Below are positions 10,547-38,079 of a stretch of DNA of 38,128 nucleotides, piece by piece. Location of the stretch: the NCBI GenBank assembly GCA_947174305.1, contig CAMWIH010000007.1, positions 1 through 38,128 of the forward strand. The letters are read 5' to 3'. Every line of letters starts with the position of its first letter. Position 1 is the first letter of the stretch. The stretch comes from an uncultured Porphyromonadaceae bacterium. GTDB taxonomy: Bacteria; Bacteroidota; Bacteroidia; Bacteroidales; Muribaculaceae. The notes under the pieces are model-generated. The model did not search any database and was not told where the DNA came from. It saw only the letters and a list, made by a program, of their open reading frames with translations. The translations under genes and the position numbers were made by a program.

Positions 10547-10624
10547 CCTGACAACTACAACTTATTGTGAAAATACACTCAAAACCAACAATATTAATAT
10601 ACTCTAAACCAACTGTAATATATT

Positions 10625-13123
10625 ATGAGAAAAAAGATTACTGTTACTCTATTGCTTTCGGTGCTATTGGCTGCGAATGCCAGAGAGATCACACCGCAGG
10701 AAGCAGAAAGCGTCGCCTCTGATTTCTTCAGATCAAAAGGCGTTGCCTACAAGCCCTCATTGCGTGAGGCCAAGATGAATCAGAAAAGGGCGGGTTCATC
10801 CACTGCCACAAACCCTTATTATGTGTATAATGCCGGTGATAAACAGGGATTTGTAATTATATCAGGTGATGACCGAAGCGACAAGGTGCTGGGATATTCC
10901 GACACCGGGGCATTCGATGCAACTAACCTTCCTCCTCAGCTCTCCCGGCTGCTTGATTGCTATGCAGAGAATCTCGATAAAAACCTTTCAGGGAAAGGCA
11001 CCCATTCCTCATGGAAAGTGGGGTCTGCACGGGTTGAAGGGAAACAGGTGTTGCTCGAAACAGCCAACTGGGGGCAGGGTTATCCCTACAACGCAGACTG
11101 TCCCACGATAGGGGATGTGCAGGCTCCCACCGGCTGTGTGGCTACTGCCATGGCAATCATGATGAAATTCCATAACTGGCCCGGAAACTATGAATGGGCG
11201 TCGATGCCTAAGAACACGGAGTCCGACCCGATTGACTATGAGAAGCAGTATGCTTCATTGGCAAAACTGATGAGGGATGCCGGCGAGGCTGTCTATATGA
11301 GCTACGGACCCGACGAGAGCGGGGCTCAGATGCCTTGGGTGGGTCATGCACTCCAGACACCGTTCCAGTATTCTTCCGATTGCCAGTTCATATATACAAG
11401 GAAACATTCCGAAGAGGAGAACCTTTCATTGTTGAGAGGCAATCTTGACAAGGGATTCCCCGTGATTTACAGCGGTTCGGGAAGTGGCAGCCATGCGTTC
11501 ATTATCGACGGATATGATGAGGATAACTATCATGTCAACTGGGGATGGGATGGCTCATGCAACGGCTATTTCAATCTTAATGCCCTTAAGCCGACCGAGG
11601 AATCCGATTTCTCAAACGATACCGGCATGGTCATCAACATAATCCCCGACAAGGTGGGTAACAATCTTTCCGAATGCTGCATCGACTTTAACCTCTGGGC
11701 AGGCGGAGATGTGGCCGAACCCATGAACATAAGTGTGGAGGATGTAAAGAAAGGGGAGCCTTTCCATATCCTGCCTGGAAGTGTCCTGATTCCGGCGCAT
11801 TATTCCGGCGAGGTCGGAATTGCCCTTGTGGGTGCTGACGATAAAATCAAAGAGGTATTAAAATCAGAGCCTGTTACAGGATATGATGAGTATTACGGAA
11901 GAAGTTTCAGATTCCTTTCCGTTGTGGCTAATTCTGATATCGATCCCACCGACAGATTGCAGGTTGTGGCTAAAAATGATAAGGATGGCTACTTCAAGTT
12001 GGTCGGTGGCACAATTGAGAGTCCTTCATACATCGGAGTGACCGGAAATAAACCGCGTCGTGGGAAAATCAAGTTTAATATAGGTGACGGCGTTGAATTC
12101 AAATGCGACACCGATTGGAACATGAATGGCAGTGACGGTCTCGGAACGATTCCCAAGGGAGAAAAAGAGGTGGAGGTGTTGCGTGGGTTGACACTCTATT
12201 TTGATTTTTCCACTTCAAATTATGATCCGAAGCAGTATGCCATATTTCAGGTTAACGGACCGTTGATTTATGGCGACATAATAATGGCTACTAATGAGAG
12301 AGAGAGGTATGAGTTTGACATTGCCGGAGATCATGAGGTGAAGGTGTCGCTTGCAACCCTTCATGATGAGAGATTTGATCTTGCACAAGCCGGTACACTG
12401 AGAGATAAGATTTCTCCTTCAGATGCCAATGGCGTAAGGGATCTTGTATTGAGCGGGAAGATGAATATGGACGACTTCATGTATATCCGAGACAATATGC
12501 CGTGTGTGCGTGTGCTTGATATGAAGAATGTGACTATTGAGGGATGCACGACAACTGATGAATCTTACGTCAAGTCTCCTCAGGAGTATGCTGCCGATGA
12601 GATGCCGAATTTCGGCCTTGTAAATCTGCATCATTCGTATATTGAGAATTTAATCCTTCCGGAAAATCTGAAAAGCATAGGGAATAATTCCATGGTGCAT
12701 TTCAAGATAGAGGGATTATCGATACCTGTTGGTGTCACTTCAATCGGTATGAATGCATTTTATGCCAACCGCAACCTTAAGTCCGTTGAGCTGCTTAATC
12801 CTAAGCCGGTGGCCATTCAAGACTGTGTATTTGTCGAGACACCCTGTCCGGAAGGGGGCACACTCTATGTTCCGAAGGGATCAGCGTCCAAATTCCGTGT
12901 CGCAGACGTATGGAAAGACTTTGGAAACATTGTGGAAGGCGCGATGCCGGAATGGTCTTCAGTAGCGGAGATTTCCGGGGATGGAATGGAGATAATTAAT
13001 GTATATTCAATTGACGGCACCTCTGTCATAAGAGGTGGTTCGAAGGCCGACCTTCAAAATCTCGATGCCGGAATTTACATCGTAAAAGATGGCAAGACAA
13101 CATTTAAGGTGTCGGTTAAGTAA
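10625..13123 (+). CDS. Secreted C10 family cysteine protease with BspA-like LRR and C-terminal sorting-like tail
   Basis: This 832-residue protein has a signal peptide (about 1-19, cleavage after ANA), a Spi-type inhibitory prodomain (about 20-110), and a streptopain-like C10 domain. The catalytic Cys is C171 in PTGCVATAMA and the catalytic His is H290 in SHAFIIDGYD, followed by the NWGWDG segment at 305-310. The middle looks beta-rich. Residues around 675-780 carry repeats of the BspA leucine-rich type (LPENLKSIG, IPVGVTSIGMNAF). The final 40 residues end with DAGIYIVKDGK, resembling a type A type-IX-secretion tail. It should be a zymogen endopeptidase acting outside the cell. It lies 78 bp after the receiver/ATP-grasp gene, without a clear promoter match, and is followed by two hairpins. 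Confidence 0.9.
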   Translation: MRKKITVTLLLSVLLAANAREITPQEAESVASDFFRSKGVAYKPSLREAKMNQKRAGSSTATNPYYVYNAGDKQGFVIISGDDRSDKVLGYSDTGAFDATNLPPQLSRLLDCYAENLDKNLSGKGTHSSWKVGSARVEGKQVLLETANWGQGYPYNADCPTIGDVQAPTGCVATAMAIMMKFHNWPGNYEWASMPKNTESDPIDYEKQYASLAKLMRDAGEAVYMSYGPDESGAQMPWVGHALQTPFQYSSDCQFIYTRKHSEEENLSLLRGNLDKGFPVIYSGSGSGSHAFIIDGYDEDNYHVNWGWDGSCNGYFNLNALKPTEESDFSNDTGMVINIIPDKVGNNLSECCIDFNLWAGGDVAEPMNISVEDVKKGEPFHILPGSVLIPAHYSGEVGIALVGADDKIKEVLKSEPVTGYDEYYGRSFRFLSVVANSDIDPTDRLQVVAKNDKDGYFKLVGGTIESPSYIGVTGNKPRRGKIKFNIGDGVEFKCDTDWNMNGSDGLGTIPKGEKEVEVLRGLTLYFDFSTSNYDPKQYAIFQVNGPLIYGDIIMATNERERYEFDIAGDHEVKVSLATLHDERFDLAQAGTLRDKISPSDANGVRDLVLSGKMNMDDFMYIRDNMPCVRVLDMKNVTIEGCTTTDESYVKSPQEYAADEMPNFGLVNLHHSYIENLILPENLKSIGNNSMVHFKIEGLSIPVGVTSIGMNAFYANRNLKSVELLNPKPVAIQDCVFVETPCPEGGTLYVPKGSASKFRVADVWKDFGNIVEGAMPEWSSVAEISGDGMEIINVYSIDGTSVIRGGSKADLQNLDAGIYIVKDGKTTFKVSVK

Positions 13124-13361: not shown

Positions 13362-14249
13362 TTATGCCCCTACAATTTCAGGGGGAAGGATGGGCATTGC
13401 GCCTTTCTGGGTGCAGACGTATGCGGAAGTGCGCACGGCTTTGTCGTGAGCCTCTTTCACGCTCTTGCCCTGAAGGATGGAGGCGATGAAGGCGGCGGTG
13501 AAGGAATCGCCGGCACCTACAGTATCGGCAACCTCAACCTTGGGAGTGGGAAGGAAGCTTACGTTTCCGGGTGTAAACACGTAGCTGCCGTTCACACCGC
13601 AGGTGAGAATGAGCATCTTGAGGTTATATTTGCCGAGAAGGATCCAGCATTTATCCTGAAGATCAATTCCGGGATAACCAAACATACGACTCACTGTCAC
13701 AAGCTCCTCGTCGTTTATCTTGAGGATATTGCAACGCTCCATAGAGTTTTCAAGAATCTCCTTTGTGTAGAAGCCCTGGCGGAGGTTGACATCAAAAACG
13801 ATCAGCGGATCGTTCTCCTCAGGAATGGCATCAAGAAACTTGTTGATAGTCTCTCTTGAGACAACATTACGCTGTGCAAGCGAACCGAAACAGAATGCGG
13901 AGGTCTCCTTTGCAAGATCCTCAAGTTCGGGAGTGAAGTTGATGTTGTCCCAAGCTACGTTCTCCTTAATATCATATACAGGCACGCCATTGGGGTCGAG
14001 CTCCACCTGCACGGTGCCTGTGGGGTAAGGAACGGTCTGGAGGATATACTTCACATTCTGACGGTCAAAATTCTCTTTAAGTTCGTGGCCGAGCGGGTCA
14101 TCTCCGATTGCACTGCAGGCACGGCTGTCAAGACCGAACTGAGAAACGTGATAAGCGAAGTTGGCGGGTGCGCCACCGATTTTCTTGCCTTCGGGGAGGA
14201 CATCCCAAAGAGCCTCGCCCATTCCTACTACTTTCATATTATTTTTCAT
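13362..14249 (-). CDS. PfkB-family fructokinase
   Basis: This 295-residue cytoplasmic kinase shows both PfkB signatures: the substrate-side GGAPANFAYH near residues 25-34 and the ATP-side DTVGAGDSFTAAF with catalytic base D248. The length is normal for sugar kinases of this family. The ribokinase-type N-terminal sequence and its position after a GH32 fructanase and an MFS sugar importer on the same strand point to phosphorylation of imported fructose, comparable to the fructokinase of the B. thetaiotaomicron fructan locus. The sugar specificity is inferred from context. Translation may begin at M1 or M5. The 208 bp before it hold a palindromic repeat array that the operon transcript would cross. 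Confidence 0.92.
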   Translation of the reverse strand: MKNNMKVVGMGEALWDVLPEGKKIGGAPANFAYHVSQFGLDSRACSAIGDDPLGHELKENFDRQNVKYILQTVPYPTGTVQVELDPNGVPVYDIKENVAWDNINFTPELEDLAKETSAFCFGSLAQRNVVSRETINKFLDAIPEENDPLIVFDVNLRQGFYTKEILENSMERCNILKINDEELVTVSRMFGYPGIDLQDKCWILLGKYNLKMLILTCGVNGSYVFTPGNVSFLPTPKVEVADTVGAGDSFTAAFIASILQGKSVKEAHDKAVRTSAYVCTQKGAMPILPPEIVGA

Positions 14250-14457: not shown

Positions 14458-15654
14458 TTATTTTGATTCTACGGGATTCTTGATCTTGAGAGTATAGAAC
14501 GCGAGATACAGCACACCGAGAGTCATCACTGCCACGGCCCCGGCCACACCTACTGCATCCTGAGCGAAGCCCATGCAGAGAGGGAACACCGTGCCTCCGA
14601 AAAGACCCATGATCATAAGGCCTGACACCTCATTCTTCTCGTTGGGCTGGCGGTTGAGAGCCTGTGCGAACACCACAGAGAAGATGTTGGAGTTGCCGAA
14701 ACCGATGCAGGCGATTGCGCAGAGCACCAGTGTCTGCGAAGTGGCCACGAAGAGTCCGACCATACCGAGAAGCATGCAGAACACGCTGAAAGCGAAGAAG
14801 CTCTTTGCCGACATCTTGGCGAGGATAACGGAACCGAGGAGACAGCCGCCGGTGCGGAAGTAGAAATATATCTGGGTTCCGAGCACGGCCTCTTCAACGC
14901 TGAGACCGAAACGTTCGCTGAGAATCTGAGGGGCGAAAGTGTTGGTTCCCACATCGATGCCTACGTGACACATGATTCCGAGGAAGCAGAGCAACACGAA
15001 AGGTATGCGGAGCAACACGATACATTCCTTCACGCCGGTCACCTTGTCGGGACGCTCCTCTTCAATTGGTGTGGCACCGAGAGCCGCAATAGAGAGGAGA
15101 CAGATTGCACCGAAAATCGGGAAGAGTATTCTCCAGGTGAGACCGAGCGTAGGCATCAATGCGGCCGCGCCCCAAGCCATGAGGTAAGGTGCGAGCAGGG
15201 AAGCGAGCGCCTTCACGAACTGACCGAAGGTAAGGGTCGAAGCCAGGCGAGCAGGATTGATAAGACCCGAAACGAGCGGGTTGAGGGAGGTCTGCATCAC
15301 GGCATTTCCGATTCCGAGGAGGGAGAATGCTATGAGCATAGTGTAGTAGCCATCGTTGAAGATGGGGATTATCAGCGACACGAGAGTGAGGATGAGCGAG
15401 AACATCACGGTTTTCTTACGGCCAATCTTATTCATCAGCATTCCGGTGGGAACGGAGAAGATGAGGAACCAGAAGAATACCAGAGAGGGGATGAAACCCG
15501 CCTGAGCACTCGAAAGGTTGTGGTCGGCCTTGACGAAGTTGGTTGCCGAACCCACAAGGTCAACAAAGCCCATGGAGAAGAAGCAGAGCATCACGGGGAT
15601 AAACTGCATCACCATATTCTTGGGCGCTGAAGGTGTGTTAACAGTTGTTGCCAT
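14458..15654 (-). CDS. MFS sugar importer of the FucP/GluP type (fructose importer by context)
   Basis: This 398-residue inner-membrane protein has about twelve hydrophobic helices. It carries the MFS loop NKIGRKKT between helices 2 and 3 and the segment GIGNAVMQTSLNPL, typical of the fucose/glucose-galactose:proton symporter branch. It sits 33 bp downstream of the GH32 stop on the same strand and is followed by the fructokinase. Import of fructose released in the periplasm is therefore the likely job, as for the MFS importer in the B. thetaiotaomicron fructan locus. The substrate is inferred, not read from binding residues. Translation starts with MATTVNTPSAPKNM, a short polar tail before helix 1. 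Confidence 0.9.
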   Translation of the reverse strand: MATTVNTPSAPKNMVMQFIPVMLCFFSMGFVDLVGSATNFVKADHNLSSAQAGFIPSLVFFWFLIFSVPTGMLMNKIGRKKTVMFSLILTLVSLIIPIFNDGYYTMLIAFSLLGIGNAVMQTSLNPLVSGLINPARLASTLTFGQFVKALASLLAPYLMAWGAAALMPTLGLTWRILFPIFGAICLLSIAALGATPIEEERPDKVTGVKECIVLLRIPFVLLCFLGIMCHVGIDVGTNTFAPQILSERFGLSVEEAVLGTQIYFYFRTGGCLLGSVILAKMSAKSFFAFSVFCMLLGMVGLFVATSQTLVLCAIACIGFGNSNIFSVVFAQALNRQPNEKNEVSGLMIMGLFGGTVFPLCMGFAQDAVGVAGAVAVMTLGVLYLAFYTLKIKNPVESK

Positions 15655-15687: not shown

Positions 15688-17514
15688 TTAATTTGCTTTA
15701 AGAGAATAAATTTCGAGATTGGTGATCTTGGCGTTCCCTTCAGAGCTGAAAGAGAGGGTTGAATAAGGCTCGTTGGGGAAGACAAGATTGGTCATGGCAT
15801 ACTTGCCATCTTTAGCAAACATCTCAATTGATGAATGGTCGATAAACATGCGCACGCTTGTCTTGCCATCTTTTGTGAAGGTGGGACTCACGGTCACCGC
15901 GGGGAAATCCTGGCTGAAATCCGATATTCCGGCCTGAGTGCGGTCGAAGGCGATGGTGTTGTCGGCAGGATTATAAGTGATCACCACTTTCTCATTCTTG
16001 GAATTTGAAAGAGTCACAAACACCTTTGCATTGTTCTTCGACTCTATATCGAAAGCCACCTCGCAGATACCGTTATTTGCGGCGGGTAGTTTGACGGAAG
16101 AGGCCTTCTTGGAGGCATTGATGTTTTTCCCTTTCACCAGGGTCATGTCGCGGAGTTTGAGGGTTTCGGGAGAGGGTGTAGAGGCGAGGTAGATCTGACC
16201 GTCGATTCCTTCAAAGAGTGACAGTTCGCGTGGAAGTGTGTTGGCGCTGCGATATTGCATCGTCGGCACATCGGCCGCATACTGCCAGTTGCTCATCCAG
16301 CCAATGGCGGTGCGACGGTTGTCGGGGGCATCACTCCAGGTTACGGTTGCATAGTTATCCTTGCCGAAGTCCATCCATTTGGTTGGGATCTTCCCGTTGG
16401 CATCGGTGTCGGCGGTGAAAGTCTTGCCGTCGAAATCACCCACGAAATATTGTGTCGCGCTACCTCCGAAAGGACCGCCGGGGTTGAGGTTGACCAGAAG
16501 CACCCATTTCTTCTTTCCGTTAATGTTGAGAGGGAAGAGGTCGGGACATTCCCATACACCATCCTGCGCGCCCTCGCCCTTTCCGAAAGAAGACTGTAGT
16601 GTCCAAGTTTTGAGATCGGGGGAGGTAAGGAAAAGAATCTCCTTATCAAGGGCGTGGGCGAGCATTATGTTCCATTGGTTGGTGTCGGCATTCCAGAACA
16701 TATTCGGATCGCGGGCCTCTGTTTCGAGAGTGAATACCGGATTGCCGGGATATTTAGTGAAAGATTCGCCATTGTTTTCGCTGTGAGCAAGGCTCTGCAT
16801 CTGGCTTGTGTTTGCAGAGGTGTAGAGTGCAATCACAGCATCTTTGCCAAAGCCTGCTGTGTTTTCAGTGTCGATCGCGCAGGAGCCGGAGAAGATAGTT
16901 CCGATTCCATCGGGTTCGATGGCGGTCGGTTCATGTTTCCAGTTTATCAGATCGGTTGAAGAGGAGTGTCCCCATGTCATGTTCTGCCATTTGGATCCGT
17001 AAGGGTTCCATTGGTAATAGAGATGCCACACGCCATCCTTATAGAACATACCGTTGGGGTCGTTCATCCAGCCATAGAGAGGGGTGTGGTGAAATGCAGG
17101 ACGATATTTCTCAGTATTTGTTGTGTCGAAAGAATCGGTGAGGGTGAATGAATTCCAGCATGCGCCCTCTTTAGCCTCGCGCACTGAAGAGCGGTCGTGG
17201 TTGGCGCTTATTTCGAGCACCACGTTATGACCCTTGTAAGGTTCGAGGTCGAGAGGCACTGAATAATCTACTTTAGATTTTGCGAGACGCACATAGAAAG
17301 TGCGGTCGAGTTTTCCATCCACAAGGAGATTGACCTTAGCATCGGCTGTGGATTCCTGTACGGGCATCATCAGATAACGTCCGTCGCCATCGATGCGCAC
17401 AAGAGTGTTGTTGGCACCTAAATGCTCAACTTTCACTCCTTCGCCAGCCGATACGCCAAGAGAGGTGGCGAGAAGCGCGGGGGCTATAAGCATATATTTC
17501 CTTAGGTTCATCAT
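15688..17514 (-). CDS. GH32 fructanase (levanase/inulinase/exo-fructosidase type)
   Basis: This 608-residue protein has a signal peptide (about 1-23, ending GVSA) without a lipobox, an N-terminal beta domain of about 100 residues, a five-bladed GH32 domain and a C-terminal beta-sandwich (about 460-608). All catalytic residues are present: nucleophile D152 in WMNDPNG, transition-state stabiliser D269 in EARDPN and acid/base E322 in WECPDL. It should be a retaining beta-fructosidase in the periplasm, freeing fructose from oligosaccharides imported by SusCD. Exo versus endo action and beta-2,1 versus beta-2,6 preference cannot be decided here. It heads the minus-strand operon with the MFS importer and fructokinase. 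Its leader is about 180 nt long and contains a GC-rich hairpin. Confidence 0.94.
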   Translation of the reverse strand: MMNLRKYMLIAPALLATSLGVSAGEGVKVEHLGANNTLVRIDGDGRYLMMPVQESTADAKVNLLVDGKLDRTFYVRLAKSKVDYSVPLDLEPYKGHNVVLEISANHDRSSVREAKEGACWNSFTLTDSFDTTNTEKYRPAFHHTPLYGWMNDPNGMFYKDGVWHLYYQWNPYGSKWQNMTWGHSSSTDLINWKHEPTAIEPDGIGTIFSGSCAIDTENTAGFGKDAVIALYTSANTSQMQSLAHSENNGESFTKYPGNPVFTLETEARDPNMFWNADTNQWNIMLAHALDKEILFLTSPDLKTWTLQSSFGKGEGAQDGVWECPDLFPLNINGKKKWVLLVNLNPGGPFGGSATQYFVGDFDGKTFTADTDANGKIPTKWMDFGKDNYATVTWSDAPDNRRTAIGWMSNWQYAADVPTMQYRSANTLPRELSLFEGIDGQIYLASTPSPETLKLRDMTLVKGKNINASKKASSVKLPAANNGICEVAFDIESKNNAKVFVTLSNSKNEKVVITYNPADNTIAFDRTQAGISDFSQDFPAVTVSPTFTKDGKTSVRMFIDHSSIEMFAKDGKYAMTNLVFPNEPYSTLSFSSEGNAKITNLEIYSLKAN

Positions 17515-17703: not shown

Positions 17704-17711
17704 CAAAGATA
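17704..17711 (-). promoter_or_regulatory. -7 promoter box of the GH32-MFS-kinase operon (TATCTTTG)
   Basis: On the minus strand this reads TATCTTTGC, a near-ideal Bacteroidota -7 element. No TTTG is seen at the -33 position, consistent with a promoter that depends on an activator. A TGCAAC half-site lies exactly 31 bp upstream of it. Confidence 0.7.
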
Positions 17712-17742
17712 TATAATCAGGGGAAAAAACGATATAACAGAA

Positions 17743-17769
17743 GTTGCAGAGACTATAAAAAATGTTGCA
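17743..17769. promoter_or_regulatory. Candidate HTCS operator copy 1: GTTGCA-N15-GTTGCA
   Basis: GTTGCA at 17743-17748 and 17764-17769 are 21 bp apart, two helical turns. The stretch TATAAAAAAT at 17754-17763 before the second half-site matches copy 2 upstream of susC at nine of ten positions. It lies between the divergent GH32 and sensor genes. Confidence 0.72.
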
Positions 17770-17819
17770 AAGCATCAAAATTTAAACTCAACGAATGTTT
17801 TTTAATACTGATTTTTTAT

Positions 17820-17827
17820 TAATTTTG
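17820..17827 (+). promoter_or_regulatory. Candidate -7 box for the hybrid sensor gene (TAATTTTG)
   Basis: TAATTTTG lies 44 bp before the ATG at 17872 and is identical to the -7 box upstream of susC. A T-rich run around 17798-17802 is in the -33 area but is not a clean TTTG. Confidence 0.55.
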
Positions 17828-17871
17828 TTGAAAATCAAAATCTAACCACGGAATTTACTCCAAACCTACAG

Positions 17872-20604
17872 ATGAAACGAATAAAAAAAGGTCTTGAAAC
17901 AATAATAATCCTGTGTATATCCCTCATAATTTTTAGCGGATGCAATGGTGGAGGTAAAAAATATAAGATAGGCATCTCCCAGTGCAGTGACGACGACTGG
18001 CGCAAAAAGATGAACGAAGAGATTGAGCGTGAAGTTATGATGCACCCTGAGGTGGAGGTGGAGATCCGTTCAGCCGACGACAGCAGCGAGAAGCAGATTC
18101 AGGATATCCGCTATTTTGTTGAGAACGACTTCGACATACTGGTGGTTGCTCCCAATGAAGCCGATTCCATCACTCCTATAATAAAGGAGGTGTATGATGG
18201 TGGCATGCCGGTGCTGTTGTTCGACCGGAGCATCCATGGCGAGAGCTTCACGGCGTGGCAAGGAGCGGATAATGCCGAGATAGGACGGTCCGCGGCGCGT
18301 TATGCAGCACGCCTGGAGCGGGAACGCAGGGGAAGCGGTAAGGTTATTGAACTCAGGGGGCGCCCCGGATCCACTCCGGCTAATGAACGCAACCGCGGAT
18401 TTGTGGAGGAGGCCCGGCAGATTCCGGAGATAGAGATTGTGGCCTCTGCCATAGGCAACTGGACTTATGAGGATGCAGAAAAGGCAGTCGATTCCCTTTA
18501 CAGTGCGCACCCCGATGTAGATATAGTCTATGCACATAACGACCGGATGGCAATCGCGGCCTCCGACGTGGCGCGCCGGCGCGGGCTCCATCCCCGCATA
18601 ATCGGAGTTGACGCGGCGCCCGCGATAGGAATAAAAGCCGTGAGGGATTCCGTGATAGATGCCACCTTCATTTATCCCACTGAAGGTCATCAGCTTATCC
18701 GCACCGCATTGGCCATTCTTGAAGAGAAGCCTTTTGAGAGGATAGCGAAGCTGCGGTCGGCCTCGGCGGTTGACAGCACTAATGCCGATATCCTCACACT
18801 TGAAAATGATGCCCTTCGGGAGGAGACCTCGAAACTTCGCGTGCTCAAGGAGGAGATAGATGAATACTGGCAGAAACATTCGGCACAGACCACCCTTTTC
18901 TATGCCTGCATCACAATCCTCCTCCTCTTCGCCTTCCTTCTCTTCTTCATACTGAGGCTCTACTGGTTCAACAAGCGCAATCAGCGTCAGCTCGAGGAAC
19001 ACAACAGGATTGTGGAGGAGGAGCGCGACAAGCAGGAATTCCTGAACAAGGAGCTGGAGAAGGCCACGCAGTCGAAACTGATGTTCTTCACCAATGTTTC
19101 GCACGACTTGCGCACGCCTCTCACTCTCATCTCAGAGCCTGTGGAATATGTGAGGAAGGCTTCAAATCTCACTCCCGACCAAAAGGAGCTGATGAAAATC
19201 GCGTCCAAAAACATCAGGATTCTCCAAAGATTGATAAACCAGATACTTGATTTCCGTAAATATGAGGATGGCAAACTTGACCTCAAACTTGCGGAGGTTG
19301 ACTTCTCCTATCTCCTGAAAGAGTGGGCTGACTCCTTCCGTTTGCTGGCGCGCCAGCAGGATATTCATTTCAGCGTGGAGACGGAGGAGGGAGATGATTT
19401 CCATCTTGCCATAGATGCCGAGAAGATGGAGAGAATCTTCTTCAACCTTGTTTCAAATGCCTTTAAACACACTCCGGCCAATGGCCATATAGACGTGAAA
19501 TGCAGTTGCGACGGCAAGGAACTCCGTTTGAGCGTCGCCGACACCGGGGAGGGTATCCCCGAAAAGGATATCGACAAGATATTCGAGCAATTCTTTCAGG
19601 TGGAGAATGTCCGTCCGAAGGGTTCGGGCATAGGGCTTGCGCTCACCAAGGCATTCGTAGAGCTTCACGGAGGGAGCATAGAGGTGAAAAGCAAGGAGGG
19701 GAAAGGATCTGAATTTGTGGTGACCCTCCCCGTCACGCACGTTGAAAACAAGGGAGATAACAAGACGATATATACCGAGAAAGATGTGTTGGCGGAAGTG
19801 GCTGCGGTGGAGTGTCACGCCCCGGAATATGACTCCGATAAACCGATGGTGCTCTTCATAGAGGATGATGAGGATATGCGGAAGATGATGGCCCAGTTGC
19901 TTGGAGATGATTATAACGTGGCTTTGGCTCCTAACGGCAAGGAGGGGTTGAGGATGGCGGCCAAATATGTCCCCGACCTTATAATCTCCGACGTTATGAT
20001 GCCGGTGATGGATGGCCTGGAATGTTGCCGGCGCATAAAGGAGGAGGTGAGCACGTCGCATATCCCGGTGCTCTTGCTCACTGCCTGCTCGATGGATGAA
20101 CAGAAGGCCGAGGGTTATAACAGCGGAGCTGACGGCTATCTGCCCAAACCCTTCAGCACAGAGGTGCTGAAAGCCCGTTGCCGGAGCCTTATTGATAACC
20201 GCAAGAGGATTTTGAACCTCTGGTCGGCAACCCCACGATCCAAGACGGCTGAGCGAAAGAAAGAGGCTGACCCGATTGATAATGAGTTTTACAATCGGTT
20301 CCTCACCAAGGTGAATGAAGAGATGGGGAATTGCGACCTTAATGTTGACCAGCTTGCCTCCGAATTAGGTTTGGGACGCTCGCAGTTCTACAGGAAGATA
20401 AAGGCCCTGACCAATTATTCGCCCGTGGAGCTACTGAGGCGGTTGCGCCTGCAGAAAGGCAGGGAATATCTCACCACCACCGACAAGAGCATATCGGAGA
20501 TTGCATACGAAGTGGGCTTCTCCACTCCCGCCTATTTCACCAAATGCTTCCGCGATGCCTTCGGAAAGACCCCTACCGAGCTGCGTGAAGACTTGGGAAG
20601 GTGA
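17872..20604 (+). CDS. Hybrid two-component sensor/regulator with periplasmic fructose-binding-type domain (BT1754-like)
   Basis: This 910-residue single-chain regulator has an N-terminal hydrophobic segment with a possible lipobox Cys (C24), then a periplasmic sugar-binding-protein domain of the ribose/LacI type (about 30-325) in place of the usual beta-propeller sensor. A transmembrane helix follows at about 343-365 and a HisKA domain with H411 in NVSHDLRTPL. The HATPase domain includes NLVSNAFKHTP, DTGEGIP and GSGIGLAL. A receiver with D707 in ISDVMMP precedes a C-terminal AraC-type helix-turn-helix (about 820-905). The architecture matches B. thetaiotaomicron BT1754, which binds fructose and activates the fructan locus. 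Direct monosaccharide sensing is therefore expected. It probably controls both flanking operons through the GTTGCA sites. Confidence 0.95.
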   Translation: MKRIKKGLETIIILCISLIIFSGCNGGGKKYKIGISQCSDDDWRKKMNEEIEREVMMHPEVEVEIRSADDSSEKQIQDIRYFVENDFDILVVAPNEADSITPIIKEVYDGGMPVLLFDRSIHGESFTAWQGADNAEIGRSAARYAARLERERRGSGKVIELRGRPGSTPANERNRGFVEEARQIPEIEIVASAIGNWTYEDAEKAVDSLYSAHPDVDIVYAHNDRMAIAASDVARRRGLHPRIIGVDAAPAIGIKAVRDSVIDATFIYPTEGHQLIRTALAILEEKPFERIAKLRSASAVDSTNADILTLENDALREETSKLRVLKEEIDEYWQKHSAQTTLFYACITILLLFAFLLFFILRLYWFNKRNQRQLEEHNRIVEEERDKQEFLNKELEKATQSKLMFFTNVSHDLRTPLTLISEPVEYVRKASNLTPDQKELMKIASKNIRILQRLINQILDFRKYEDGKLDLKLAEVDFSYLLKEWADSFRLLARQQDIHFSVETEEGDDFHLAIDAEKMERIFFNLVSNAFKHTPANGHIDVKCSCDGKELRLSVADTGEGIPEKDIDKIFEQFFQVENVRPKGSGIGLALTKAFVELHGGSIEVKSKEGKGSEFVVTLPVTHVENKGDNKTIYTEKDVLAEVAAVECHAPEYDSDKPMVLFIEDDEDMRKMMAQLLGDDYNVALAPNGKEGLRMAAKYVPDLIISDVMMPVMDGLECCRRIKEEVSTSHIPVLLLTACSMDEQKAEGYNSGADGYLPKPFSTEVLKARCRSLIDNRKRILNLWSATPRSKTAERKKEADPIDNEFYNRFLTKVNEEMGNCDLNVDQLASELGLGRSQFYRKIKALTNYSPVELLRRLRLQKGREYLTTTDKSISEIAYEVGFSTPAYFTKCFRDAFGKTPTELREDLGR

Positions 20605-20676
20605 TAAAAAGACAAAATGACTGAAAATTGATAAGAAAGTACGGAATATTTAAAATTGGTTGAAACATTTTAGAGG

Positions 20677-20705
20677 ATGTTGCAAACCATATAATAAATG
20701 TTGCA
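20677..20705. promoter_or_regulatory. Candidate HTCS operator copy 2: ATGTTGCA direct repeat upstream of susC
   Basis: ATGTTGCA at 20677-20684 and 20698-20705 are 21 bp apart, and the intervening TATAATAAAT at 20690-20699 matches copy 1 at nine of ten positions. Spacing and sequence agree with the divergent-promoter site at 17743-17769. Confidence 0.72.
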
Positions 20706-20727
20706 TACGGCTAATAATGATAGCTGA

Positions 20728-20735
20728 TGCAACAT
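20728..20735. promoter_or_regulatory. Inverted half-site TGCAACAT close to the susC promoter
   Basis: TGCAACAT is the reverse complement of the ATGTTGCA units upstream. Its TGCAAC core ends 31 bp before the susC -7 box, the same distance and orientation seen at the GH32 promoter. Confidence 0.65.
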
Positions 20736-20764
20736 TTTTTATATTCCTATCTATCTCTCCTATA

Positions 20765-20772
20765 TAATTTTG
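20765..20772 (+). promoter_or_regulatory. -7 promoter box of the susC operon (TAATTTTG)
   Basis: TAATTTTG followed by C fits the -7 consensus and lies 35 bp before the susC ATG. The -33 area (about 20735-20742) is a T-run without G, as expected for an activated promoter. Confidence 0.68.
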
Positions 20773-20807: not shown

Positions 20808-23800
20808 ATGAAAAAAACGATGCTTACCGCTTTTCTGATGTTCTTCGCCGCAGTGGTTGCGCAGGCTCAGAATCTGACAGTGCATGGAACAGTGATCTCT
20901 CGCGCCGACGGGGAGCCCCTGATCGGTGCCACCGTGCTTTCGGATGCCACAAAGAATGGCGTGGCCACCGACCTCGACGGAAACTTCACTCTTACCGTGC
21001 CGGAAAATTCTACGTTAACCTTCTCTTATATCGGCTATCAGTCCACCACGCTGAAGGCCGAACCCAAGATGACAGTCTATCTTGATGAACTGTCCGATCT
21101 TCTCGACGAAGTGGTCGTGACCGGTTACACGGTTCAGCGTAAGGCCGACCTTACCGGTGCCGTGTCGGTGATGAACATGAAGGAGCCTCTGAGCGAAAAT
21201 TCAGGAAACATCATGAACTCAATGGCCGGTAAACTCCCCGGTGTGAACGTTGTTCCGGATGCGGCTCCGGGCGGAACAGGCTCGATTCGCGTGCGCGGTA
21301 TGTCAACCGCCAATTCAAGCAACGATCCCCTTTATATCATCGATGGTGTGCCTACCGACAACATCAACATGATCAACCCCTCCGATATTGAGTCGATGCA
21401 GGTGTTGAAGGATGCGGCTTCCGCCTCTATTTACGGTTCGCGTGCAGCCAACGGTGTTGTGATCATCACTACCAAACATGGCAAGGGCGACCGCCTCACG
21501 GTCAATGTCAACTATGCTATTTCTGCGCAGACCATCGCAAAGCGTTACAAAGTGATGGACGCTCAGCAGTGGGGTCAGGCTTACTGGCAGGCGGCCGCCA
21601 ACTCAGGCATTCCCGCAAACAATGCACTCTATGGTAGCGGCAGCCAGCCTCAGCTTGTGGAATTCATTGACGGAAACCCCAACTATCCTTCCACAAACAC
21701 AGACTGGCAGGATGTGGTATATCACACTGCATGGACCAACAACCTCACAGCATCAGTGGCCAACAATACAGAAAAAAGCTCAGTGCTTTTCTCCGCCAAC
21801 TATATCAACCAGAACGGTAACATCAAGGATACATTCTATGAGCGTTACTCAGCGCGTGTAAACTCACGCTTCGACATCAACAAATATGTTGCTGTAGGAG
21901 AAAACCTCGTTGTGGCTCGCTGGAGCAATCGCGGTGTCGATGTAGCCGGCGACCGAGGCATTCCTTTCACCGCTCTTTCACAGATGCCCTGTATCCCCGT
22001 TAAAGGTCTTGACGGCACATGGACAAATCCTATGGCCCTCTTCAAGTCTGACCTTGCCAACCCTGCTCAGCTTATTGCCAATGCGGCCGATAACTCTTCA
22101 ACAAGCTGGCGTATCTTGGGCAATGCCTTCATTGAGGTCAAGCCTATCGAAGCCCTTACCCTTAAGTCGAACATCGGTATCGAGCATTCGCAATATCTCA
22201 ACCAGAATCTCACTCGCCGTGTAGCTGAAACAGATGTTAACTCAGTATCAGAGAGCTATGGTCAGGGCGATACCTGGACCTGGACAAACACCGCCTTCTA
22301 TAACAACACCTTCAACGATATCCATCATTTCTCAGCCCTTATCGGTACTGAAGCCATCGGATATACATTCAAGGATTTAGGCGCATCGCGCACAGGTTAT
22401 GCTTTTGAAGATGCTGACTATATGCAGATCGGAGCCGGCAGCGGCGACCGTAACAACTGGGGTGGCAAATCTCAGTGGAGCGTGTTCTCCCTCTTCGCAA
22501 AATTGGATTACAACTTTGCCGACCGCTACCTTGCGTCTTTCACAATCCGCCGCGATGAGAACTCCCGCTTTGCAAAGGGACACCGTGCAGGTGTGTTCCC
22601 CGCATTCTCCCTTGCATGGCGTCCGTCGGCAGAGCCCTTCTGGAAAGAGAACGATATCCTTACAGATCTCAAGATCCGCTACTCTTGGGGTCAGAACGGT
22701 AACGCCAACATTCCTCCTCTCTATCCCGCTTACTCCACCTACATCTTCAATACCGGTAACGGTGCATACGATGTCAGCGGCACGAACTCTTCCACTACTC
22801 CGGGTATCACGCTTGCCGCTTCCGGTAACCCCGACTTGACCTGGGAGACAACTGTTCAGAACAATATCGGTATCGATATGCAGTTCTTCAATGGCGCGCT
22901 CGCCCTTTCTGCCGACTACTATATCAAGAAAACTTACGATATGCTTACCATTCCGCCGGCATTGGCAGTGGCAGGTGAGAATGCGGCAAAATGGCTCAAC
23001 ACAGGTTCGATGCGCAACAACGGTTGGGAAATCACCCTTGCCTACAACTCTCCTACATACGGTGACTTCTCATGGAACGGATCTATCAATATCTCTCAGT
23101 ATAAGAACAAGCTCCTTAAGCTCAATAATCAGGAAGACCATATCGGCGGGGATGCACGTCTTGTTCCCGGCAAGCCGATGGGCATCTATTACGGCTACGT
23201 ATGCGACGGCATCTTCCAGAGCATGGAGCAGGTTGCAAACCACGCAAATCAGGTGGGCGCAGCTCCGGGCCGTCTGATGTATCGCGACCTTAACGGCGAT
23301 GGTGTGATTTCTGATGCCGACCGTTGCTATATCGGCGATCCGAACCCGGATGTATCCCTCGGTCTTAACCTGGCATTCAAATACAAGGCCTTCACTCTCG
23401 ACATGTTCTTCGCCGGTGACTTCGGTCAGGATATCATCAACAGCATGAAGGGACAGCTCTACAGCTTCGGCCGTGCCAACCTCTGGACCAACCACGCCGC
23501 CGACATCCTCAATGCCTGGACTCCCCAGAACACCGGTTCGGATATTCCGGCCCTCTCCCTTACGGATGCCAACAACGAGGCTCGCTTCTCTACCTACTAT
23601 GTGGAAAACGGCTCTTATATGAAGATGAAATACCTCAAGCTTTCATATCAGCTCCCCCGCCACATCACAGAGAAATTCGCTTGCGAAAACCTCAACGTAT
23701 ATTTCCAGGTTGAGAACGTGTTCACAATGACCAAGTATAAAGGTCTTGATCCTGAACTTCTCCCCGGCGAATATGGCGGTCTTTGGGATAATGGCGCTTA

Positions 23801-23846
23801 TCCGCGTCCCCGTACATTCACTTTAGGTGTTAACTTCCAATTCTAA
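20808..23846 (+). CDS. SusC-family TonB-dependent outer-membrane transporter (fructan)
   Basis: This 1012-residue protein has a signal peptide (about 1-20, cleavage at AQA), a carboxypeptidase-regulatory-like domain (about 22-100) and the SusC signature DEVVVTGYTVQRKADLTGAV. A plug domain follows, with IRVRGMSTANSSNDPLYIIDGVP and VLKDAASASIYGSRAANGVV, then a beta-barrel ending in FTLGVNFQF with the terminal Phe. It imports oligosaccharides across the outer membrane using TonB energy. It pairs with the SusD gene 9 bp downstream, and the flanking GH32 genes identify the cargo as fructan oligosaccharides. No extra N-terminal STN signalling domain is visible, which fits control by the hybrid sensor rather than an anti-sigma system. 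Confidence 0.96.
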   Translation: MKKTMLTAFLMFFAAVVAQAQNLTVHGTVISRADGEPLIGATVLSDATKNGVATDLDGNFTLTVPENSTLTFSYIGYQSTTLKAEPKMTVYLDELSDLLDEVVVTGYTVQRKADLTGAVSVMNMKEPLSENSGNIMNSMAGKLPGVNVVPDAAPGGTGSIRVRGMSTANSSNDPLYIIDGVPTDNINMINPSDIESMQVLKDAASASIYGSRAANGVVIITTKHGKGDRLTVNVNYAISAQTIAKRYKVMDAQQWGQAYWQAAANSGIPANNALYGSGSQPQLVEFIDGNPNYPSTNTDWQDVVYHTAWTNNLTASVANNTEKSSVLFSANYINQNGNIKDTFYERYSARVNSRFDINKYVAVGENLVVARWSNRGVDVAGDRGIPFTALSQMPCIPVKGLDGTWTNPMALFKSDLANPAQLIANAADNSSTSWRILGNAFIEVKPIEALTLKSNIGIEHSQYLNQNLTRRVAETDVNSVSESYGQGDTWTWTNTAFYNNTFNDIHHFSALIGTEAIGYTFKDLGASRTGYAFEDADYMQIGAGSGDRNNWGGKSQWSVFSLFAKLDYNFADRYLASFTIRRDENSRFAKGHRAGVFPAFSLAWRPSAEPFWKENDILTDLKIRYSWGQNGNANIPPLYPAYSTYIFNTGNGAYDVSGTNSSTTPGITLAASGNPDLTWETTVQNNIGIDMQFFNGALALSADYYIKKTYDMLTIPPALAVAGENAAKWLNTGSMRNNGWEITLAYNSPTYGDFSWNGSINISQYKNKLLKLNNQEDHIGGDARLVPGKPMGIYYGYVCDGIFQSMEQVANHANQVGAAPGRLMYRDLNGDGVISDADRCYIGDPNPDVSLGLNLAFKYKAFTLDMFFAGDFGQDIINSMKGQLYSFGRANLWTNHAADILNAWTPQNTGSDIPALSLTDANNEARFSTYYVENGSYMKMKYLKLSYQLPRHITEKFACENLNVYFQVENVFTMTKYKGLDPELLPGEYGGLWDNGAYPRPRTFTLGVNFQF

Positions 23847-23854
23847 ACTACACA

Positions 23855-25537
23855 ATGAAGACATCATTCAAAAATATCATAAAAGGGTCAGCTTTCGCTA
23901 TGGCGATAGCGGTGAGCGGTATGGGATTCACCTCATGTAATGACCTTCTCGACACTAAGCCACAGGGTTCTTTCACTGAAGCCCAGATAGGCGACGATGA
24001 GGCGGAAGCCCTGATGACGGCCGCATATGCCACCCTCCTTTGCCATTACTTCGGCAATAACGAATCTTTTGCCGGCCCGATCAACAACTGGGTATTCGAT
24101 ATCCGTTCCGACGATGCTCAGAAAGGTGGCGGCGAGCTTGGCTTTGAAAGCTACATGCACGAGTTCTCTATCGGTAACGTTCAGAGCAATAACCCTATCC
24201 TCGACTACAAATGGCGCAATGACTTTTTCTCGATTTCGCGTTGCAACACGGCTATCCGCGGTCTGAAGAACGCCGGGAATCTCTCTGAAGACAAACGCAA
24301 GGCATACGTGGCCGAAATGAAGACACTGCGTGCCTACTACTATTTCGATCTCTACCGTATCTTCCGTGAGTTCCCTTACTTTACCGACGAGACGGCCGAT
24401 CCTTCCACCTGCAGCCCGCGTGAGTTCTCGAAAGAGCAGATCATGGGATTCATCTATGCCGACCTTGAGGAGGCCTATAAGGACAATGTGGAGAAACAGA
24501 GTGAACCGGGACGTTTTAATAAGTATGTAGCTGCGGCTATCCTCGCACGTGTGGCGCTCTTCAACCATGATTATGCCAATGCGGAGAAATATGCCGACGC
24601 TGTGATCAAGAGCGGCCAGTATGAGCTCTATCCCAACTTCCTTGACATTTCCAAGCCTGAGATGAACAATCAGTATGAATCTGTGATGGCCGTGCAGTTC
24701 TCTTCTGCCAATACCCCCGATCAGTATAATTTCAACAACTGTCTTAACTGTACTCTCTCGGAGGGTAACCTCTACGGTAACGGCGATGACTTCTATGTAG
24801 GCTCTCAGAACCTCGTGAATGCATTCCGCACCGATGAGTCGGGCCTCCCTTATCTTGACGAGGCAAACGCACCTTCAGGCAACCTTGACCGTGCCGACTA
24901 TCCCGGCAATGTTGACCCTCGCGTTGACTTCACATTCGGTCGTCTCGGAATGCCTTGGAGAGGCTACACATACAATGAGCAGTGGTGCCGTAACCTCCAG
25001 AACTATACTCAGTTCTCCGGCAAGAAGCCTTATCCTTCGCCCGATAGCCCTTACGTAGAGGTAGGTATCGTGCCTTGGGGCGCAAGTTCCTTGAACTACA
25101 TCATCATCCGTTATGCAGATGTTCTCCTGATGAAAGCAGAGGCGCTTATCGAGCAGAACAAAGGTCTGGACGAGGCTCGCGGCCTTATCAACCAGGTCCG
25201 CGCTAAAGCGGCCCGTTCTGTAAGCTCCTCCTACACTCCGGTTGACGTGAACCCGATGATTGCCACATATCTTGTCCGCGAATATGGCGCGCAGGGCTGG
25301 ACTCAGGATTACGCACGCAAGGCAGTCCGCATGGAACGCCGTCTTGAACTCGCGCTTGAGGGTCATCGCTGGTTTGACCTCCTGCGTTGGGGCAATGCAG
25401 TGGAAACTGTTAATGCTTATTATGTGAAAGAGGCTAAACTTTATCCTCAGTATAGCAATGCTCATCTCAACGAAGCTGATCTCTACAGCCCGATACCTCT
25501 CGGTCAGGTGGATGATGCAGGCGATCTCTATAAATAA
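23855..25537 (+). CDS. SusD-family surface glycan-binding lipoprotein (fructan)
   Basis: This 560-residue protein has a lipoprotein signal peptide ending GFTSC (C28) followed by NDLLDTKPQGSFTE, a typical SusD opening. Helical TPR-like segments follow, including AEMKTLRAYYYFDLYRIF (about 149-166). The C-terminal RagB/SusD domain holds YIIIRYADVLLMKAEAL, MERRLELALEGHRWFDLLRWG and the closing LYSPIPLGQV. It is the lid partner of the SusC barrel on the cell surface and should bind fructan oligosaccharides. The gap to susC is only 8 bp, so co-translation is likely. Confidence 0.96.
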   Translation: MKTSFKNIIKGSAFAMAIAVSGMGFTSCNDLLDTKPQGSFTEAQIGDDEAEALMTAAYATLLCHYFGNNESFAGPINNWVFDIRSDDAQKGGGELGFESYMHEFSIGNVQSNNPILDYKWRNDFFSISRCNTAIRGLKNAGNLSEDKRKAYVAEMKTLRAYYYFDLYRIFREFPYFTDETADPSTCSPREFSKEQIMGFIYADLEEAYKDNVEKQSEPGRFNKYVAAAILARVALFNHDYANAEKYADAVIKSGQYELYPNFLDISKPEMNNQYESVMAVQFSSANTPDQYNFNNCLNCTLSEGNLYGNGDDFYVGSQNLVNAFRTDESGLPYLDEANAPSGNLDRADYPGNVDPRVDFTFGRLGMPWRGYTYNEQWCRNLQNYTQFSGKKPYPSPDSPYVEVGIVPWGASSLNYIIIRYADVLLMKAEALIEQNKGLDEARGLINQVRAKAARSVSSSYTPVDVNPMIATYLVREYGAQGWTQDYARKAVRMERRLELALEGHRWFDLLRWGNAVETVNAYYVKEAKLYPQYSNAHLNEADLYSPIPLGQVDDAGDLYK

Positions 25538-25572: not shown

Positions 25573-27045
25573 ATGAAAAAACTATTATATATGGCAGCCG
25601 GTCTCTGCCTAATGGCAACGAGCTGTTCGGAATATACTCCGGAGGGTTACACCGAGGAACCGAGCCTTCCCGTGGTTACTTCGATGGAATATACCGTGGG
25701 CGGTGATGCCAACCATGACATTAACATTACATGGACACTCCCCGCCGACAAGGAGGTGACGGGATGTATCCTCTACCGCAACGCCACAGAGATAGAAGCG
25801 TTTGATCTTAACGCAACTCGTTCTTACTCTTACACTGTGCTTGGTACTCCGCTTGGCGAAGAGGTTGTCTATACCGTAAAGGTTACCTACGAAAACGGTT
25901 ATATCTCAACCGGAAAGTCGGTTATCATCAATCTTCCTGAGGAAACATTTGCCGGTGTGAGCAACCTTACAAGCGAGGTGAACGGCCGTGCCGTCACACT
26001 GAGCTGGACTCTTCCGACACAGGCCCACCGTACAGGCGTGCGCATCGTTACCAACGGTGAGACCGACAAGGCTATTCTTCTCGATGCCGATGCTACATCT
26101 TATGTGCTCAAAGCTCAGCCTATGGAGACTCCGCTCACCTACTCGGTTGAGGCTGTGTATGACACTTATTACTACTCTCCTGCAGTAAGCGTGGAGAAGA
26201 CAATCCCCTACGTGGAGCCGAAGATGCTCTTCCTCCTTCCGTCGGATGCCGCCACCTTCAATGACCTCAGCGATGACGACGAGCTTGCAGCCGCCAAGTG
26301 GTTTGCAGCTCAGCCAAATGCCGAGTTCCTGCATCCTGCGGATATAGCCAACTATGATCCGGCCATCTATTCGGTGATATGGATTATGGTTGACAGAATC
26401 GGCCTGCAGGCAGGATGGGAGAACCTTCCCGGCGATCTTGCCGCTCCTGCCACAATCGATGCCCTCAAGGCTTATTCTGCCGATGGAGGTTCACTCTACC
26501 TCTCAAATATGGCCACCCAGCTTACTGTTCCTTTGGAAATCGTTCCTTCCGATATGGGACCCTCGATATTTGCCAGCGGAGAAGGTGGTTCTGGGGATGA
26601 TGTATGGGTGATCAATCCTTACCTCGGCTGGGACTTCAAGGATGGTGCAGACCAGGGTTTCTACGACCGCACGGAACATGCAATTTTCCAGGGTATCACT
26701 CTCGAAGACCCCAACGGGTATGGTTATCCCAACATCCCTCTCATAGGCCCCGGTCAGCGTGAAGACCATAACTGCATGTGGGATTGCAACATCTATGGCA
26801 GAGGGTCGGAGCGCGATGTGATCCGCAACTTTGAGGTGACAACCAACTCTCTCGTTCTCGCCACCTGGGGACACGTTCGCGACCACTGCGTGGCAGGTTT
26901 GGTTGACTTCTACAGCAATCCTCAACACGGTCGTTGCGTGGCCAACGGTTTCGCCGCCTACGAGTGGAACCAGAACTCAGGCCATAATCCCTATCAGGGT
27001 AATGTGGAGAAGCTCACTGAGAATATTCTTAATTATCTGAAATAA
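25573..27045 (+). CDS. DUF4960 surface glycan-binding lipoprotein
   Basis: This 490-residue protein has a lipobox MATSC (C18) and two fibronectin-III-like modules (about 30-120 and 120-212). A C-terminal domain (about 214-490) begins MLFLLPSDAATFNDL and includes IYSVIWIMVDRIG, LYLSNMATQ and VLATWGHVRDHC. This layout matches the DUF4960 proteins found beside SusCD in fructan loci, equivalent to BT1761. The domain resembles a catalytically inert glutamine-amidotransferase-like fold, but no enzymatic triad is claimed. It should be anchored outside the outer membrane and help capture fructan. It is 35 bp after susD and followed by a hairpin terminator. Confidence 0.85.
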   Translation: MKKLLYMAAGLCLMATSCSEYTPEGYTEEPSLPVVTSMEYTVGGDANHDINITWTLPADKEVTGCILYRNATEIEAFDLNATRSYSYTVLGTPLGEEVVYTVKVTYENGYISTGKSVIINLPEETFAGVSNLTSEVNGRAVTLSWTLPTQAHRTGVRIVTNGETDKAILLDADATSYVLKAQPMETPLTYSVEAVYDTYYYSPAVSVEKTIPYVEPKMLFLLPSDAATFNDLSDDDELAAAKWFAAQPNAEFLHPADIANYDPAIYSVIWIMVDRIGLQAGWENLPGDLAAPATIDALKAYSADGGSLYLSNMATQLTVPLEIVPSDMGPSIFASGEGGSGDDVWVINPYLGWDFKDGADQGFYDRTEHAIFQGITLEDPNGYGYPNIPLIGPGQREDHNCMWDCNIYGRGSERDVIRNFEVTTNSLVLATWGHVRDHCVAGLVDFYSNPQHGRCVANGFAAYEWNQNSGHNPYQGNVEKLTENILNYLK

Positions 27046-38025: not shown

Positions 38026-38079
38026 AGCCAGGTTTGTTAGATAATCGCGGACACGCAAAAATGCTGTCCCAAGTTAATT

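Follow-up and report, generated by a model that had tools for sequence, protein, structure and literature searches.

How does a regulator that is held in the membrane find and use its sites on the DNA? Among the controllers of polysaccharide use in Bacteroides, hybrid two-component systems (HTCS) are a major class (PMC11253607), and for these membrane-held proteins the question has been named as a topic for future study (PMC3404733). It is raised here by a fructan locus in a stretch of 38,128 nucleotides from an uncultured Porphyromonadaceae bacterium of the Muribaculaceae (assembly GCA_947174305.1, contig CAMWIH010000007.1), hereafter the window, in which an HTCS gene lies between a leftward operon for GH32, MFS and PfkB proteins and a rightward operon for SusC, SusD, a DUF4960 protein and a second GH32 enzyme. 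Both intergenic regions very likely carry an operator for the HTCS encoded between them, in which four half-sites would serve activation and, as we propose, cooperativity. Such an operator, with its near-fixed promoter distance and its mirrored arm, predicts a stoichiometry of two dimers, helical phasing and autoregulation, and it provides exact testable positions as well as a search profile for fructose regulons in uncultured members of the family.

Part of this layout was to be expected. The predicted motifs of 16 HTCS are described as direct repeats spaced 21 bp on average, and for HTCS_Man as 16-bp sites with a 5-bp spacer (Ravcheev et al., 2013, PMC3878776), so that a 21-bp repeat is what would be looked for beside an HTCS gene. 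The promoters were recognized by the -7 consensus TAnnTTTG (PMC7366714).

The repeats flanking the regulator gene

The hexamer GTTGCA occurs at 17743 and 17764 and again at 20679 and 20700, with TATAA[A/T]AAAT preceding the second copy of each pair, exactly as an earlier note on this DNA had reported for two pairs 21 bp apart. The distance of 31 bp to both promoters that it had claimed is likewise exact in the window: TGCAAC read towards the GH32 promoter ends 31 bp before TATCTTTG (minus strand, 17711-17704; spacer 17712-17742), and towards the susC promoter 31 bp before TAATTTTG (20765-20772; spacer 20734-20764); in the relatives the distance is a conserved 31 or 32 bp. Of the proposal that the two promoters share half-site, orientation and spacing, the half-site and the spacing stood, but the GTTGCA pair at susC faces away from its promoter, and the TGCAAC from which the susC distance is counted (20728-20733) is a separate third copy outside that pair. 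With forward half-sites designated F and reversed ones R, the pair at 17743/17764 corresponds to the promoter-facing F2/F1 and the pair at 20679/20700 to R2/R1, while the 31 bp at susC start from F2. The idea of a shared operator was thus sound, but the 27-bp pair is not its unit, which consists of four half-sites in a mirror arrangement; one common 27-bp operator unit was rejected, since the two pairs are opposite arms at the two promoters. The elements in the window, with half-site matches out of 16 and with the reversed half-sites and the susC F1 placed by the 89-promoter profile described below, are as follows:

17704 to 17711, minus strand: -7 box TATCTTTG of the GH32-MFS-PfkB operon, conserved anchor in relatives
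17733 to 17748, minus strand: F2 of the GH32 operator, TGCAACTTCTGTTATA, 13/16, 31 bp from the end of its core to the -7 box
17754 to 17769, minus strand: F1 of the GH32 operator, TGCAACATTTTTTATA, 16/16, 21 bp upstream of F2
17771 to 17786, plus strand: R1 of the GH32 operator, reversed, 10/16
17792 to 17807, plus strand: R2 of the GH32 operator, reversed, 10/16, directly upstream of the promoter of the HTCS gene
17820 to 17827, plus strand: putative -7 box TAATTTTG of the HTCS gene, 22 bp past the R2 core
20669 to 20684, minus strand: R2 of the susC operator, reversed, 12/16
20690 to 20705, minus strand: R1 of the susC operator, reversed, 15/16
20707 to 20722, plus strand: F1 of the susC operator, degenerate, 6/16
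20728 to 20743, plus strand: F2 of the susC operator, 16/16, 31 bp from the end of its core to the -7 box
20765 to 20772, plus strand: -7 box TAATTTTG of the susC operon, conserved anchor in relatives
20689 to 20744, plus strand: hairpin from R1 to F2 with a T-rich 3' arm, candidate 3' end of the HTCS transcript, -24.3 kcal/mol, z -6.6

The exact 27-bp pattern is found in the window only at the two reported places, and with up to two mismatches it has six matches against a mean of 2.56 in shuffles. A scan of the 2.8-Mb genome to which the window belongs gave three exact matches, the third of them inside an open reading frame. The combination TGCAAC-N31/32-TAnnTTTG has five matches in this genome, two at this locus and three on other contigs (the one on C17 inside an open frame of L134), and the pattern in the reversed reading has one.

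A probable mirrored operator in related loci

For comparison, searches for the regulator covered genome contigs, which gave 23 loci (only the 8 above 50% identity were kept), 149 genomes of the family, 63 of them with a match at E 1e-150 (G045:C80 and G048:C283 were left out), 247 genomes of the order, 24 of them with a match, and 81 genomes of the family of G280, 16 of them with a match at E 1e-190. Orientation by tblastn yielded 58 loci with at least 51% identity in the best segment, including the window and with one duplicate dropped, and 54 below that value. When all 143 outward-facing TAnnTTTG boxes of the 58 loci were considered with no selection for the half-site, TGCAAC accumulated at 31 bp (26 cases), 32 bp (14), 52 bp (17) and 53 bp (7), against a mean background of 0.107 per other distance between 0 and 89 (30 and 51 also excluded). 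These peaks establish the spacing of 31 or 32 bp as a conserved rule, and since the reversed core GTTGCA has peaks of its own at 59/60 (8) and 80/81 bp (12) upstream of the box, two further, reversed positions are indicated.

On each side one promoter was then selected, namely the best TAnnTTTG that has a half-site 31 or 32 bp away; F2 had to match in at least 10 of 16 positions, and R1, R2 and F1 were not used. This left 89 promoters (48 on the GH32 side and 41 on the susC side), among which the near-copies L013/L054 and L087/L091 count twice; removal of identical forward pairs and of the window leaves 82. The information profile of the 89 promoters contains R2 (-59 to -44), R1 (-38 to -23), F1 (-21 to -6) and F2 (0 to 15), in this order and followed by 31-32 bp up to the -7 box. 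The half-site is 16 bp long with the consensus TGCAACATTTTTTATA, R1 and R2 being its reverse complements, and gaps of 5 bp within each pair and 1 bp between the pairs result in a mirror-symmetric element of 75 bp. All four half-sites emerge although the selection rested on F2 and the -7 box alone. In 74/89 promoters the strongest reversed match ahead of F2 falls at -59 or -38. When the rows were grouped at genus level, with the window and each single named locus as groups of their own and L102 kept apart from its genus g23, at least half of them had this placement in 23 of 24 groups. All four half-sites reach 9/16 or more in 51/89, while in shuffled upstream DNA a single reversed site attains 9 at a rate of 0.039. 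Alignment of the upstream regions of homologous fructan loci thus finds the operator conserved in relatives, and its layout, its conservation and its neighbours are all read directly from the DNA.

In this profile F1 and F2 form the direct repeat with a period of about 21 bp. The element exceeds two tandem half-sites, since two further reversed ones are conserved; it is treated here as a variant of the known type, because PMC3878776, in the text consulted, does not define HTCS operators by the absence of further sites. The direct repeat of 21 bp is already known, and the mirrored arm and the near-fixed promoter distance are the variation found here. At -76 to -73 of the 89-promoter profile a weak A-run, placed 21 bp higher than the one in R2, may indicate that some species have a third reversed half-site.

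Scans that did not depend on the window led back to the same places. Weight matrices trained on the 82 relatives' promoters, window excluded, gave six matches over the 38 kb: two are the operators with their -7 box, three are shifted or reverse-strand readings of these operators, and the last is a weak match at 10605 with no -7 box. Nine of ten shuffles of the window had no match and one had a weak one. A sequence profile built from 73 relatives' operators, from which the sequences of the window were excluded and in which its close relatives were included, has the two operators as its top two matches in the own genome (E 7.3e-14 and 6.2e-12). Third to fifth come the reverse strands of the operators (3.5e-7 and 5.0e-6), expected because the element is mirror-symmetric, and a promoter on contig C14 (1.5e-6) that adjoins a paralogous HTCS; weaker matches are on C125 (E 1.3e-4) and C100 (E 3.9e-4). 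Across 41 genomes, the own genome and 17 of the 24 others of its genus contain matches with E below 1e-7, a number partly dependent on the model, as G472 agrees in coordinates with training locus L006 and further ones may be training genomes too. Nine of these 17 genomes (G472, G474, G476, G483, G484, G486, G487, G488 and G489) have the matches as divergent pairs about 3 to 5 kb apart. None of the 16 genomes of other families has a match with E below 1e-7, the best being 2.0e-4; matches at E 0.1 or lower appear in 39 of the 41 genomes, those near 0.01-0.1 being background.

Several observations weigh against so regular an element. Eleven of 100 candidate sides fell below the F2 threshold, and the spacing is not wholly fixed (31 bp in 51/89 and 32 bp in 38/89 promoters). 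The top forward match upstream of F2 is at -21 in only 56/89, and F1 is weaker on the susC side (mean 9.85 vs 12.15 on the GH32 side), where it reaches 9/16 in 30/41 only. In the window itself the susC F1 is degenerate, with 6 matches of 16, and the reversed arm of the GH32 operator is weak, with 10 and 10. Among more distant HTCS, L130 and L131 (about 38% identity, family of G280) have the tandem pair, with half-sites TGCAACATTTTTATA and TGCAACATTTTTTAT 21 bp apart and 31 bp from TATGTTTG, and lack the reversed arm, which is therefore not required by every HTCS. A screen for the tandem layout in the 54 distant loci (below 51%), based on the half-site tail, was passed by 11 of at most 108 sides, of which 8 have 31 bp, 2 have 30 and 1 has 32.

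Tandem tails of the ATTTGTTATA type at 31 bp are found at L073, L075 and L077. In the 54 distant loci self-similar pairs 21 bp apart number 6 at distance 31 and 5 at 32 and at most 4 elsewhere (8 to 69), where both promoter directions were pooled and shifted copies of the same pairs inflate the counts; this small excess does not establish generality beyond the family. The paralogous HTCS of the own genome, L079 (48% identical, C14:1817-4609), is followed at its 3' side by an operator of comparable design, whose different core (TGAACG/TGTCAC) stands 32 bp from TAATTTTG; its R1 is clear and its R2 poor.

Hairpin, reversed arm and identity of the regulator

The inverted repeat GTTGCA...TGCAAC between 20700 and 20733 could also be chiefly the intrinsic terminator of the HTCS gene, with the match to an operator being secondary. 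The hairpin is strong (z -6.6) and common to five related sequences, in which 6 of 26 pairs are changed on both sides in at least one sequence and one pair occurs in four types, and z values below -3 are reached by 12/41 operators on the susC side and by 3/48 on the GH32 side. Nevertheless, we consider this explanation unlikely, as 29/41 susC-side operators fall short of z -3 and still keep the half-site and the spacing of 31-32 bp (the criteria of their selection), and the reverse strands fold about equally (z below -3 in 9/41, and in 6/48 on the GH32 side). The pair counts, moreover, come from five sequences only, with an unfavourable covariation term of +0.68, and a consensus terminator scan does not have the hairpin among its listings. 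The T-run forms part of the 3' arm of the stem. In our reading, the hairpin gives the susC-side operator a second, clade-limited role as the putative end of the HTCS transcript, a role that the operator itself does not need.

Alternatively, the reversed arm might lie outside the activator site and serve the divergent HTCS promoter in autoregulation, in which case its copy near susC would be a duplicated remnant. On the GH32 side this agrees with a reverse-facing TAnnTTTG within 120 bp in 45/48 operators, which in 43/48 lies at a near-fixed 18-22 bp past the R2 core and corresponds to the promoter of the HTCS gene. On the susC side, however, such a box within 120 bp occurs in 1/41, and with means of 10.73 (R1) and 10.34 (R2) of 16, vs 4.04 and 3.77 at nearby offsets, the reversed arm there matches slightly better than its GH32-side counterpart (R1 9.77, R2 9.62; nearby-offset controls on both sides 3.8-4.6). 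A remnant near susC would be expected to decay. Given this conservation on the susC side, an arm due solely to the divergent promoter is judged distinctly unlikely. Because it is kept where almost no promoter faces it, the reversed arm probably belongs to the operator itself, while its closeness to the -7 box of the HTCS gene suggests that on the GH32 side it also touches that promoter. For BT1754, the promoter is described as having low constitutive expression and no response to fructose (PMC3404733).

The earlier note had placed an AraC-type regulator gene between the promoters. An AraC-type helix-turn-helix (HTH) is indeed present, but by its domains the protein is a BT1754-type HTCS and not a plain AraC. 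A single chain comprises a Peripla_BP_4 domain (residues 39-286, 7e-39), which fits a periplasmic sugar-binding-protein sensor such as the COG1879 type, followed by HisKA (402-467), HATPase_c (515-622), Response_reg (660-769) and HTH_18 (828-906). The codons tcg cat atc ccg (20056-20067), translated by eye, spell SHIP and cover only that part of the S/CHIP-DK motif of HTCS (PMC11253607). BT1754, the fructose-sensing HTCS of B. thetaiotaomicron (HTCS_Fru), has the same domain plan and a sensor resembling a sugar-binding protein (PMC3404733), and is given as the sole HTCS of B. thetaiotaomicron with such a sensor (PMC3878776). The adjoining GH32, MFS and PfkB genes, as the sole pointer, suggest fructose as the ligand.

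That this HTCS would bind the operators is indicated by its position between them, by a homologue and by joint change of HTH and sites, and here the earlier assignment was strengthened. In several species the sites precede genes of the locus to which the regulator belongs: among six window proteins, the best match downstream is GH32 in 46/48 and MFS in 2/48 on one side, and SusC in 40/41 (none in 1/41) on the other, which also bears out that both promoters belong to one fructan regulon. In chromatin immunoprecipitation sequencing (ChIP-seq) of BT1754, the region reported as most enriched is the 3' region of its own gene (PMC3404733, which does not define half-sites); this peak points to the HTCS because the predicted susC operator occupies the 3' region of the HTCS gene here. 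Finally, in the HTH motif GLG[R/H]SQFYRK four of 58 loci (L084, L086, L096 and L102) have His for Arg, and G stands at half-site position 5 in 17/25 core-bearing half-sites of the His-bearing loci vs 2/186 in the others, the G-for-A half-sites being mainly TGCAGA and TGCCGA. Two points count against this argument: the four loci form a single clade (support 99), and the association is hence one event, and F2 on the susC side stays TGCAAC in 2 of the 3 clade members that have a susC-side operator. In the tree each locus was represented by its longest open frame, which in L004, L007, L008, L013 and L015, with their long branches, is probably not the right gene, and the joint placement of the four His-bearing rows is the only conclusion drawn from it. 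The change from Arg to His together with that of the half-site in these four loci may be a natural change of specificity.

A different regulator as owner of the sites, for example the Crp-like BT4338/Cur, has ChIP-seq sites of BT4338 inside the fructan locus of B. thetaiotaomicron in its favour (PMC11501099). It is nonetheless very improbable, since the consensus given for BT4338, wwwTATGTTnTAnAACATAwww, forms a palindrome of 22 bp that does not resemble these half-sites, the period of 21 bp agrees with that published for HTCS (both PMC3878776), and the sites change together with the HTH of the HTCS in one clade. A chance origin of the repeats, for which the AT-rich region and the weak profile matches in nearly all genomes (in other families weak ones only) might speak, is next to impossible and was rejected, as the earlier note had anticipated, in view of the distance histogram, the window-free scans and the conservation in 23/24 genus-level groups.

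Proposed mechanism and genes of the locus

Binding, activation, cooperativity and autoregulation are what we infer from these positions. Binding of fructose in the periplasm would lead to phosphorylation of the receiver, upon which the dimeric, membrane-held HTCS would set its two HTH domains on F1-F2. With F2 at 31-32 bp from the -7 box, one HTH domain would come to lie beside RNA polymerase and transcription would be activated, a step for which activation by AraC from its direct repeat serves as the model. A second dimer on R1-R2 would add cooperativity, and in the GH32 region it would also reach the promoter of the HTCS gene itself, probably damping it. In this family, two membrane-tethered dimers would thus sit back to back on a 75-bp element, one activating the fructan genes from 31-32 bp before the -7 box, the other stabilizing the complex and, in the divergent region, setting the expression of the sensor, while the susC-side operator would in some species also be the terminator of the sensor gene; we give this picture an even chance of being right.

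The nearest parallel outside the HTCS is AraC, a soluble one-component protein, whose araI1-I2 is a direct repeat of half-sites of about 17 bp with a period of 21 bp and with the proximal site beside the promoter. In contrast to AraC, a mirrored second pair and a promoter of the Bacteroidota TAnnTTTG type are found here. The likeness to Bacteroides HTCS operators (Ravcheev et al., 2013, PMC3878776) lies in the direct repeat of about 21 bp upstream of genes of the own locus, and the HTCS_Fru regulon described there includes an inner-membrane transporter and a kinase, genes that are present here too. While that paper describes two tandem sites, the locus studied here has the additional inverted arm and the near-fixed distance to the -7 box. 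For BT0366, the legend of Fig. S3 of PMC5061871 says that the figure marks both sites and -7 boxes. A literature search, whose scope ended before that figure, the supplements of PMC3878776 and most subscription papers, turned up neither an inverted arm nor a fixed distance to the -7 box in HTCS operators.

The proteins of the window were annotated by Pfam and NCBIfam searches, which define the locus as a fructan locus with the HTCS between two divergent groups of genes:

13362 to 14249, minus strand: PfkB-family kinase, top NCBIfam match fructokinase, below cut-off (Pfam/NCBIfam)
14458 to 15654, minus strand: MFS transporter, by its context a likely fructose importer (Pfam/NCBIfam)
15688 to 17514, minus strand: GH32 enzyme, leading gene of the leftward operon (Pfam)
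17872 to 20604, plus strand: HTCS regulator, 910 aa, with Peripla_BP_4, HisKA, HATPase_c, Response_reg and HTH_18 (Pfam)
20808 to 23846, plus strand: SusC/RagA outer-membrane transporter (NCBIfam)
23855 to 25537, plus strand: SusD-family lipoprotein (Pfam)
25573 to 27045, plus strand: DUF4960 protein, 3' of SusD (Pfam)
27330 to 29699, plus strand: second GH32 enzyme, with an N-terminal laminin-G-like domain (Pfam)

At a guess, the DUF4960 protein might be a surface fructan binder and the laminin-G-like GH32 an extracellular enzyme. Adjoining the fructan locus, a peptidase of the C10 family with a Spi-type inhibitor prodomain and BspA-like repeats is encoded at 10625-13123. Further away are a TMEM260-like protein O-mannosyltransferase (75-3941) and, at the other end of the window, a Peptidase M6 of the immune inhibitor A type with an fn3 domain (35260-38058, minus strand), next to whose gene a protein with CARDB and cleaved-adhesin domains is encoded (32323-35247).

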